This document shows, in pieces, positions 41,652-46,240 of a stretch of DNA of 64,000 nucleotides (the first letter of the stretch is position 1; each line of letters begins with the position of its first letter). The stretch comes from Desulfurobacteriaceae bacterium (GTDB taxonomy: Bacteria; Aquificota; Aquificia; Desulfurobacteriales; Desulfurobacteriaceae), in the NCBI GenBank assembly GCA_027068415.1, contig JAMOTD010000027.1, forward strand, positions 1 to 64,000, given 5' to 3'. The notes below the pieces were generated by a model. That model saw only the letters and a program-made list of their open reading frames with translations, had not been told where the DNA came from and made no database searches. Made by a program: the position numbers and the translations under genes.

Positions 41652-41701
41652 TCATGAAGCCTGCATTGTAAACGATTTGTAAATTTCTTCGGAGGTATTC
41701 C

Positions 41702-44700
41702 ATGGGAAGAAAGTGGAGGAGGAGCAGGCTCACCCTTACTACGGGTTTTATACTGTCTGCCCTTGTCGCTTCTCAGGCCTCTGCCCAGCACCCTGCCGTT
41801 AAGCTCATTGACGTTGAGGGTAAGCCTGAGGTTGAACAGCTTGACTCAAGTAAGACTGTAACCGTTCAAAACAAAGACGGCCGAGAGGTTCAGCTCATTA
41901 AGGGAACTCCCATCAGCTTTGAGAAAACCTGTGCTCAGTGTCACAAGGATATAATCACCGATGTAAGGGCCTCCCACCACGGTGCGGTCGGCCTCCACGA
42001 CATGGGCTGGATGGACAACCACGAGACGAGGGGAGACGACACCGGAACGAAGGACTTCGTTACAAACGAACTTCTTAAGATGCGCTACTTCAGGACGAAG
42101 TCCCACTACGGAGGCTGGTGACCTCCCTCCTACCGCCAGTTGGCGGCAAAGAAACCCCTTAAAGACCCTGCAGTTCCCGACGGTGCGGTTGACGGCGTTG
42201 ACTATAACACCGGCGGTGATATGAACGCCTACAAGGGTTTCAACTTTGACATGGGTACTATGAACCAAAACATAACATGTAACTCGTGTCATGCAGGAGG
42301 AGGGGCAGCTCAGTTTGGAAGGGAGGAGAAATCTCTTGATGAGGTTTTAGAGGAGAAGCTGGGAGCGGAGCTCTGGGAGGCTCTTGAAAACAAGGACTGG
42401 TTCATTCATGAAGATGAGTACCTTGCAAAGACGGGAATTGACGGCGACCTCCTCGGCTACTCCGATTACGAAGTCGGTGCCGGATACCTCGGTAAACCGG
42501 GGGTATTTAACTACAAGAGGGCCGGCGTTAACGATACCGACTGCTTCATGTGCCACGCCGACGCCTCTTCTAATAAGAGGATAGTCTCCGAAGTAAACGG
42601 AACGAAGGTCTACCCCTTAATGCCTGCCAACCCGAGGGTAATGGTATTTAAGGGTATGACTGCCGATGGTGAGACAATTGTTATTTCTCTCGGTTTCCCC
42701 CCGAAAATAGGGGAGGTTATTAACGGGAAGGAAGTTAAGAAAGTTGACTCTGCTTACTACAACTCCGTTCCCCTCTCCGTTCTAAACAGCGTCTACAACG
42801 ACCCCAACCTTGATGACAGGATAACCGATAAGGATAATCAGGAGCTCAAGTTCTACCTCTACCCCAACAATGCAAACGGCGCGACGAGGGAAGTTGCAAG
42901 GGTAGTCTACTTTGAGCATAAGGATAAGACAAAGGACAAGGACGGCGGAGAGGTTTACGTTAACGGCGGTGCCGTTACCTTTAAGGACACTGATGGTGAT
43001 GTAGTTTACAGGACATTTGCAGGTTTCTTCTTTAAGTACATCTCCACTGCATCCCTAATGGGCGTTGATACAGACGGAGACGGCGTCCCCCTTGCCTACG
43101 TAAGGTTCGTTAAGGACGAGAACGGCTTCTGGAGACCCGAGGTCTACTACGATGCAGATGAGTTTGAGGGAGGAGAGGTAGAGCTCCCAATCCTTGAAAA
43201 CAGGATTGGCGATAAGAACACTCCCTCAACCGAAGTTTCTCCCCAAGACTACACCTACTCCGTTCCTGAAAAACTCGGAGATGCCAACGACCCCTACCCC
43301 AAAATGACCAGGGCCGATAAGAATAGGGAGTGGGGCTACGTCTGCTCTTACTGTCACATGGCTATCCCCTATAAGAGCGGAGAGACCTCTGACGGTAAAA
43401 GTGTTTATACTTGGGTAACCAGGAAGGGAACTCTTGGCCTTGCCGCTGAAATCGTCAAAAGGGGAGATGTCTTCTCCTACGACCTCCACAGGGGAGGAGA
43501 GGAAAAGGGCAACCTTCCCTATGATGCCTTCGTTGGAGTTGACTTCAGCGACCAAAATGAGAAGCGGCAAGCTTTCGGCAGAATGCTTACGGCAAAGTCT
43601 GTAGTCTCCTTTGACGACATCCCCATAGGCTACGACGTCCACTTTGACAGTGAAGTAGGAAATATGACCTGTCTCTCCTGCCACGGTGAGGGCTCCCTCT
43701 CTCCTGAGGAGAAGAAGTACCACCCGATTCACCACGACTTCCTCAAAGGAAACGACTGGGGAGGTCACTGGGACCAGTCCCTTGACTACAACCCCTCCTT
43801 AAAAACCTGCGTTGACTGTCACTTCGGCGGCTCAAGGCAGCTTGCTGCAGAGGTTCACTCTGATGCTTTCGGGCCTGGTGGAAATTCTGCAGTTCACATG
43901 GAGAAAGTCGCGTGTGAAGTCTGCCATATCCCATTTAAAACCCACTGGACTTTCAGGACTTTCTATGACGTCCTTGGCTACTCCTACAACTTTGATAACA
44001 GAATGCTTGCCTACGACCTTGAAAACGGAACTGTTCAGAAGCTTCCCGAGAGTATGTTTACTCCGGGCTTTGGCCCCTTCATGCCTATTGCAGGGTACGG
44101 AGCTCCCCAGCCCTTCTGCATAGTCAGAACCGATGACGGCAAGGATACTGTAGTTCCCATTTATCAGGCAGACTTTGACCCGAGGCAGGCCGCTCTGAGG
44201 TACAAGCAGGATATGTTCGGAATCTGGAAAGTTCCCGAGGGAACCTTCCCGTGGGCTTGGGCTCCTGTAATTATCAACAACGGTTTCAGGCCCGATACGC
44301 CCGGTGGCCAGAAGTTTATGTACAGGATTGCCAACCCGTTAACCCTCGTTACCTGGTACGATAAATCAACGGGCAAAGTCCTTTACACCCGCGAAATTGC
44401 AGCAGCCTTAGACGGTACCGTCAAGTCAGAAGCGGCATCTAAGGGAATTCTCCCTGCAGGACAGAGCGAGAAGAGGGTTCCGGCCTACTTTATTGAGGGC
44501 GGTAAAGTCTGCGTTAAGACAATCCTCGGTAAGTACATCTGCGACGACAACGGCGATTACCTGCCTGAAATTGATACTGACGCAGAGTACGAGGACATGA
44601 AGGCCGCCCTCACGGAGGTTCTCAAGGCCGAAGGGGTTAAAAACCCTGAGCCCGTCTTTTACCTCTGGATTGCGCCCTTCAGCATTGACCACGGAGTTCT

Positions 44701-46240
44701 TCCCAAGGAGTACGCCCTCGGTGGAGGTAAGACGGTTAACGGTGAAAAGCTCAACTGTTCCGCCTGCCACGACGCTAAAGAAGGTAGACTTCCTCAGGCA
44801 AACATGGCCGACATCAACTCAAGTGATAGCCTTAGCCAGTTGATTGTTAAGGATGAAAACGGCCACATTAAGTACTTCGGCCTCGGCAGAGAAATTGTCA
44901 CCGTTCCGGTTAAGATTCCGGCTACCGCCTACAAGGAGGCCGTGAGGGTCTTCTTCAACTCTCCTGAGAACCCTGACGGCTCTCCCAAGTACGGAAAGGT
45001 GGGCGGTAAAGACGCAATGGTTACTACGGCCGGAGATATCCTCGTTAACGCCCTTGCAAACGGAGTTGACGTTGACAGGCACCTCGTTCCTATTCCCGTT
45101 GAGAGCTCCGGAATAGACGGAATTGCTTTCGCCCTTCCCGGAAAGAGCTCAAGCTGGAAAATGAAATTTGACGGAGTAGAGGCGGAGGTTGAGACCGAGG
45201 CCCTTCACGACGACGAAGTTCCCAGGAGGGCAATCGTTATAAGGCTTAAGAACGAGCTTCCCGAGCTCCTCGGCTTTGAGCACCACGCCAAGGAAATCCT
45301 TGAGGCTGGTGGAGAGACCCTTATTCCGGTCTTTACTCCTATAATTCCTTCAGAGTATATTGAGAGAATTAAGTTCAGCCTTGCTCAGCTGAAAGTCGCA
45401 AGCCCCGATGGTCTCTACATCAATTACGCCAAGATTCACAAGGTAAGGCACTCTGAGGGAGAGCACGTTCATTACGAGATTGATAAGGAGAACTTCAAAC
45501 CCGCTTCGGTTTCTATAAGCGAGGCTATCAGCAGGGGTTGGGCTTCCTACGATTCCTACACCAAGGAGCTGACAGTTAACGTTGCAGCCCTTAGGGAGGA
45601 AACTCCCGGAGAAGGCGAGCTGGTCTTTGCCCTTATGAGAACTCCTACCTCTTCTGTTTCAATACCTACCAGCGTTGAGGCCACTCTCGTTTCGGGAACC
45701 GAGGCAGACGTTAAGCTCAAGTTTAGCGGTGAAGAGCACAAGGTTAAAGTTAGGGTTGAAGACGATGGAACCTCAATTGCCGAAATTCTCGGGGAGACTC
45801 CTGAAGGCCAGAGGGAGCTCCTTAACTTTGCAAAAGAGTTTAAACTCAGCAAGGTTGTTTTAGGAATGAGGTTAACGGGAACTTCTGGGAAGTTTGAGCT
45901 CACCTTTGAAGGTGCCGCTCCTCTTGTTAACCCCGATAGGGCGGTTGTCGTCGTTCAAAGGGGAGAGACCAAAGTTGAGGTTAAGCCCTCCGTCTCCGGA
46001 AACGACCTTGTTGCCGAGGTTGACCTTGCCACCAGAACTACCGGCGAAGAGGAGCCCATTGTTGCCGTACTGGGCGAGAGGAGCACTACCCCGACCGTTG
46101 AGGTCTCCGGTACCGGAGGAGGCGGAGGAGGAGGTTGCTCAATGGGAGCTCCCCAGAGTGCCGCAAGCGGCCTTCTCAACCTCGGAGCTCTTCTAACCGG
46201 CCTTTTAGGGCTCTTTGGCTTCAGGAGGAAGAAACACTGA
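41702..46240 (+). CDS. Octahaem surface cytochrome c with an in-frame UGA (probable selenoprotein)
   Basis: Read through one UGA at codon 140 (42119-42121), this is a single frame of 1,512 residues; the halves before and after the UGA share the frame. A signal peptide (basic n-region, FILSALVASQASA) leads to eight CxxCH haem sites: CAQCH (77-81), CNSCH, CFMCH, CSYCH, CLSCH, CVDCH, CEVCH and CSACH. The last 350 residues are beta-rich. The end is a Gly-rich linker, a Cys, a hydrophobic helix and RRKKH, a CTERM-type surface-sorting tail. ATG 41702 follows GGAGGT. The protein likely carries electrons at or outside the outer membrane. If UGA is not decoded as Sec, it is a truncated 139-residue monohaem protein plus an orphan. 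Confidence 0.75.
42119..42146 (+). promoter_or_regulatory. UGA codon followed by a SECIS-like hairpin
   Basis: After the UGA come 11 bases, then stem CCGCC (42133-42137), loop AGTT (42138-42141) and GGCGG (42142-42146). The loop lies 16 bases after the UGA and carries G-U in its first half, within the usual limits for bacterial selenocysteine insertion elements (short stem, small loop with an early G, 16-37 bases from UGA). Confidence 0.6.

Follow-up and report, generated by a model that had tools for sequence, protein, structure and literature searches.

A predicted selenocysteine-containing octahaem cytochrome family with its own insertion hairpin in Desulfurobacteriaceae and other bacteria

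An octahaem cytochrome gene interrupted by an in-frame UGA

We analysed a stretch of 64,000 nucleotides from the draft genome of a Desulfurobacteriaceae bacterium (contig JAMOTD010000027.1, positions 1 to 64,000), hereafter called the window. On its forward strand, which carries all features given here by window position, positions 41,702 to 46,240 (stop codon included) form a single frame of 1513 codons whose sole interruption is a TGA at codon 140 (42,119 to 42,121), with 1372 codons beyond it. We read this gene as encoding an octahaem c-type cytochrome of 1512 residues in which the UGA very probably specifies selenocysteine (Sec); orthologues of 13 relatives carry the same UGA. A Shine-Dalgarno sequence (GGAGGT, 41,691 to 41,696) lies just 5' of the ATG, and the product begins with a signal peptide of about residues 1–28 (41,702 to 41,785), assigned by eye. 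By the count of CxxCH motifs, haem 1 (CAQCH, residue 77, 41,930 to 41,944) lies ahead of the TGA and seven haems lie beyond it, namely haem 2 (CNSCH, residue 193, 42,278 to 42,292), haem 3 (CFMCH, residue 281, 42,542 to 42,556), haem 4 (CSYCH, residue 548, 43,343 to 43,357), haem 5 (CLSCH, residue 657, 43,670 to 43,684), haem 6 (CVDCH, residue 703, 43,808 to 43,822), haem 7 (CEVCH, residue 738, 43,913 to 43,927) and haem 8 (CSACH, residue 1019, 44,756 to 44,770). The protein ends in a sorting-like tail (46,115 to 46,237) made of a glycine run, a cysteine, a hydrophobic stretch and RRKKH.

An earlier note, made from the letters of the window, had described this frame, with its signal peptide, one haem site before the TGA and seven after, and export tail, and every one of these elements is present. 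It had also stated that no sensible start follows the UGA. Of the later in-frame starts, the ATG at 42,641 (codon 314) alone has so much as a partial Shine-Dalgarno sequence, and we see no convincing restart. The same note had proposed that a hairpin directs Sec insertion. Within the codons of the conserved peptide motif W-U-P-P-S-Y-R-Q-L-A-A-K (42,116 to 42,151) we indeed find a stem CCGCC (42,133 to 42,137), a loop AGUU (AGTT in DNA, 42,138 to 42,141) and the complementary GGCGG (42,142 to 42,146). The distance from UGA to loop is exactly 16 nucleotides, and the element follows the published rules for a bacterial selenocysteine insertion sequence (bSECIS).

The UGA is conserved across several phyla

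Full-length orthologues were found in most Desulfurobacteriaceae genera examined, each with one TGA at the same place. In total, the UGA is kept in 14 orthologous loci and in two paralogous families, in the context W/L-U-[PA]-P-[SA]-YRQLA. The window genome (1.6 Mb) itself holds three copies of the Sec-octahaem design: the window gene, a copy from the second family (G000:C14:105332-109261) and a copy from the third (around G000:C14:8860-8888; L083:6726-9209, minus strand). Both paralogous families are about 24–40% identical to the window protein and have the same UGA, eight haems and the nucleotides TACCGCCAGTTGGCG. The C-terminal tail is common to all three families, with a nearly invariant GGGC, and its similarity to JDVT-CTERM, Loki-CTERM and LPXTG signals is weak.

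One genome per GTDB species was scanned with the codon-degenerate peptide PP[SA]YRQLA[AP]. This yielded 48 relatives, every one with a TGA ahead of the motif and with the same 15 nucleotides. They are spread over Desulfurobacteriaceae, many metagenome-assembled genomes (MAGs) of Thermodesulfobacteriota/Deltaproteobacteria, a Calditrichota MAG, a Methylomirabilis MAG and the isolate Ammonifex thiophilus. A Cys-coding version of the motif, [YD]G[KGA][WL]CPP[SA]Y, retrieved no relatives from the GTDB collection, and a scan of IMG/VR for relatives found none. More diverged members were reached by hidden Markov model (HMM) searches, which brought the number of distinct members readable at the Sec column to 133, from several phyla. 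This column holds UGA in 112 of them and Cys in 12; the other nine have a different residue, with Trp (TGG) seen once, in the divergent relative L225. The check suggested in the earlier note, whether homologues have UGA, Cys or Trp at this site, supports Sec: the UGA is conserved, and the chief substitute is Cys, with loss of the hairpin. Purifying selection continues downstream of the UGA, where the third-position excess persists. We also observed a giant 19-haem relative of 1900 residues (L172/L174, G084:C345), in which the Sec column holds Leu, within WLPYPYRQLA, and the hairpin has decayed.

A family-specific hairpin tracks the UGA

Folded as a single sequence, the window hairpin has an unremarkable energy (z +1.09); taken alone it is therefore weak evidence, and the case rests on comparison with relatives. 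When we applied the published bSECIS rules (PMC13188914) and required at least four G-C pairs, a hairpin was present in 112/112 UGA members and in 0/12 Cys members, which rules out a chance hairpin. When the loop was restricted to the form typical of this family, AG[TGA]T, the counts were the same for these two classes, and one of the nine members with other residues also qualified. This sole non-UGA bearer, L218 (G367:C144:20500-26000), has Ser (TCA) at the column and an intact 8-bp hairpin, TTCGAGTC-AGTT-GACTCGAA, which looks like a relic of a recent Sec-to-Ser loss.

The stem changes in a paired fashion among members (CCGCC/GGCGG, UCGCC/GGCGA, GCGCC/GGCGC, GCAGCC/GGCUGC, GCGGCC/GGCCGC and UUUCCGC/GCGGAAA): pairing holds in 95.1% of cells, with 17 double changes, and neither value was reached in any of 500 shuffles. 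The loop occurs as AGUU, AGGU or AGAU, always with G as its second base. In members with two extra codons after Sec the hairpin shifts with the peptide, giving a spacing of 22 nucleotides. The synonymous codons for RQLA are also frozen. In an HMM-selected set, CGC CAG TTG GCG is used by 98/98 UGA members and 0/5 Cys members, and CGC, TTG and GCG are minority codons elsewhere in these genes; an initial count on a motif-selected set was circular and was replaced by this one. On the tree, at least eight changes between UGA and non-UGA are required, and in the few independent pairs the hairpin always accompanies the UGA. A search of Rfam returned no SECIS-like or other meaningful match.

Selenocysteine machinery in the genome

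The earlier note had pointed to the Sec genes as a check on its proposal. In the window genome the curated cut-offs are exceeded by selA (623 bits), selB (437 bits) and selD (374 bits), but selC, the gene for tRNA-Sec, was not found in the draft, although tRNA-Sec scores about 81 bits in all three congeners. It reaches 79–84 bits in every Desulfurobacteriaceae genome examined except the window draft and G020, and has been published for Thermovibrio ammonificans and Desulfurobacterium thermolithotrophum (PMC4227106, PMC5441870). In G003 the tRNA-Sec gene adjoins radA. Because radA is likewise not found in the window draft, the tRNA gene was likely lost to an assembly gap. The assembly lacks both genes despite a completeness rating of 99.98%. 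The selD gene (L081, G000:C31:2171-3097, minus strand) contains an in-frame UGA in SG-U-GAKL followed by its own hairpin, GAGCCC-GGUC-GGGCUC, and is predicted to be a selenoprotein gene itself.

Predicted fold and gene neighbourhood

The family of the window protein falls outside every Pfam and NCBIfam model, and a PDB sequence search gave nothing useful. A structure model of the window protein (mean predicted local distance difference test, pLDDT, 81.5) had one significant Foldseek match, 1SP3, the octahaem cytochrome c of Shewanella oneidensis (E 3e-4). In hhalign comparisons the family aligned with 29 members of TIGR04315, the octahaem tetrathionate reductase (OTR) family that includes 1SP3, at about 99% probability and with scores of 151–182, against 48–75 for other multihaem alignments; CxxCH inflates the E-values of comparisons among multihaem alignments (controls reached 80–96% probability), and the score difference alone was used. 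Taken together, fold and profile indicate that the window family is a distant relative of OTR. Six His residues outside CxxCH are invariant in the window-type alignment compared with eight in that of TIGR04315, so that window-type proteins may have one or two haems that are open or bound by other ligands.

Copies in Aquificota stand alone, and in Thermodesulfobacteriota the Sec cytochrome gene comes third: a haem-free outer-membrane-barrel-like protein is encoded ahead of it in 18 loci and a 12-haem lipoprotein in 16. This conserved upstream pair (L112, L113, L118, L141 and others), in which the lipoprotein resembles QrcA, is apparently an undescribed porin-cytochrome conduit. Short Sec-octahaem members (L105, L208, L231-L236) are fused to a cytochrome b resembling formate dehydrogenase gamma (FdnI-like), which suggests a quinone-linked membrane version. 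These contexts suit a protein at the end of a membrane-linked, partly extracellular route of electron transfer.

Alternative explanations and proposed function

Were the UGA a plain stop in a broken or split gene, the locus would yield two products, a short protein with one haem and another encoded downstream. UGA does end 9/48 long open reading frames of the window, and the folding energy of the hairpin is not extraordinary by itself. However, the same codon stands in 112 distinct relatives with frames open on both sides, selection continues downstream where no well-placed ribosome site would permit a restart, and Cys takes the place of the UGA where the hairpin is gone; a plain stop is accordingly very improbable. 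Readthrough as Trp or another selenium-free residue, by a suppressor or at a leaky UGA, could draw on the TGG of L225 and on the tRNA-Sec missing from the draft. We consider it just as implausible, given that Cys outnumbers Trp as substitute by 12 to 1, that the hairpin tracks the UGA, and that selA, selB and selD are present, the last with an in-frame UGA and hairpin of its own. The draft is in 34 contigs, which might invite the idea of a sequencing or assembly error, but the recurrence of the TGA in independent genomes makes this explanation negligible. A further alternative concerns the role of the Sec, which could be real and yet structural or electron-relaying, tuning or ligating a haem in a pure conduit that performs no chemistry on a substrate. 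The shortage of invariant His, which may leave two haems lacking a His distal ligand, favours this role, and the barrel and 12-haem partners likewise suggest an electron conduit; relatives nonetheless tolerate Cys and Ser at the Sec column, and in OTR proteins the corresponding Cys/Sec is presumably part of the active site. We regard such a conduit role as the main rival to catalysis, possible but rather doubtful.

UGA 140 thus very probably encodes Sec in an octahaem cytochrome. Several points weigh against this account or parts of it. Support for Sec insertion is at the level of sequence throughout, and selC is missing from the draft. The independent pairs on supported branches are few (four, p 0.125). 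Ser, Leu, Val, Gln or Trp takes the Sec column in a few diverged relatives, and Sec is therefore dispensable in some branches. Local confidence is low around Sec in the structure models, which bears on its nearness to a haem, and a second model, that of L105, gave no significant PDB match in Foldseek, so the claim of an OTR fold draws on one model together with hhalign. Finally, the window gene is solitary, between alaS and a PpiC-like gene, with no porin partners.

On the Sec reading, SelB and tRNA-Sec would decode UGA 140 under the direction of the hairpin just 3' of it, giving a single 1512-residue product, which, from its signal peptide and CxxCH motifs, is expected to be exported and to undergo c-type maturation. 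The C-terminal tail or a barrel partner may then display it at the surface. Sec lies in the loop that links haem 1 to haem 2, and we propose that its selenolate, next to a haem that is open or weakly ligated, would attack an S-S bond or an oxyanion, while the remaining haems would supply electrons from the outer membrane. Elemental sulfur, polysulfide and tetrathionate are candidate substrates. A surface or outer-membrane reductase is the most likely function, and we lean slightly towards Sec acting catalytically, close to an open haem and on a sulfur-type substrate. The earlier note had suggested that Sec might ligate or gate a haem. More speculatively, and with little probability in our view, the selenolate of Sec140 might be a direct, perhaps redox-switchable, axial ligand of haem 1 or 2, such that binding of a sulfur substrate would gate outward electron flow.

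Comparison with known cytochrome systems

Sec-containing multihaem cytochromes are already known, namely ExtKL and members of TIGR04315 (PMC13188914, PMC5877670). None of the papers searched describes the window family; individual GenBank records may already annotate some members. We describe a separate, multi-phylum Sec-octahaem family with a hyper-conserved SECIS of its own, covered by no curated model; gene callers that follow curated models may therefore split these genes. Selenium in outer-surface respiratory machinery is apparently commoner than curated protein families record, and the family suggests that anaerobes which cycle sulfur and metals carry out selenium chemistry on their outer surface. 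Its natural Sec, Cys and Ser variants form a matched set for probing the role of selenium beside haem.

TIGR04315, a Sec member of which is listed in PMC13188914, has eight haems in matching order, as in the window family, and shares with it a His placed 12 residues beyond that of haem 1. Its members also have Sec or Cys in the stretch from haem 1 to haem 2, so that the octahaem superfamily is predicted to contain two branches that place Sec/Cys on the same haem 1–2 linker. The families differ in that window-type proteins score 23–46 bits against the TIGR04315 profile (cut-off 375) and are two to three times longer, with sheet-rich extensions. The TIGR04315 motif NNF-[U/C]-I and hairpin GGTGC-AGGT-GCACC are both unlike those of the window family, and its Sec lies about 10 residues before haem 2 rather than about 50, so that the two positions may not be strictly equivalent. 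The TIGR04315 alignment has an invariant Lys (K133) 12 residues on from where haem 3 starts, and no invariant Lys stands there in alignments A4 and A6; in TIGR04315 this Lys presumably serves the active-site haem as its distal ligand. Among TIGR04315 matches above the cut-off in the phylum concerned, about half have UGA and the rest Cys; those with UGA at NNF-U-I include L253, L257, L258, L263, L264, L267, L268, L270, L273, L275-L277, L279 and L280.

ExtKL of Geobacter (NF040886, cyt_C_like_Sec; PMC5877670) resembles the window protein as an exported multihaem cytochrome with one Sec and a porin-like gene nearby. It differs in having five haems, with Sec beyond all five in GHxIPDG-U-PTPNRLVLSV, and a different hairpin. 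Identity with ExtKL was rejected: the window protein has no NF040886 match and no Sec after haem 5 in IPDGUPTPNR. The decahaem OmcA/MtrC family (TIGR03507) was likewise rejected, on eight haems and 14.9 bits against a cut-off of 209. With their barrel-like and 12-haem lipoprotein genes, the Thermodesulfobacteriota loci resemble porin-cytochrome conduits of the Mtr, Pcc and Ext types, but for the barrel NCBIfam gave no match and OMP_b-brl only a weak one, and the Aquificota genes are solitary. In Sec motif, SECIS, architecture and spread, the window family is, on the comparisons made here, distinct from the known Sec cytochromes.
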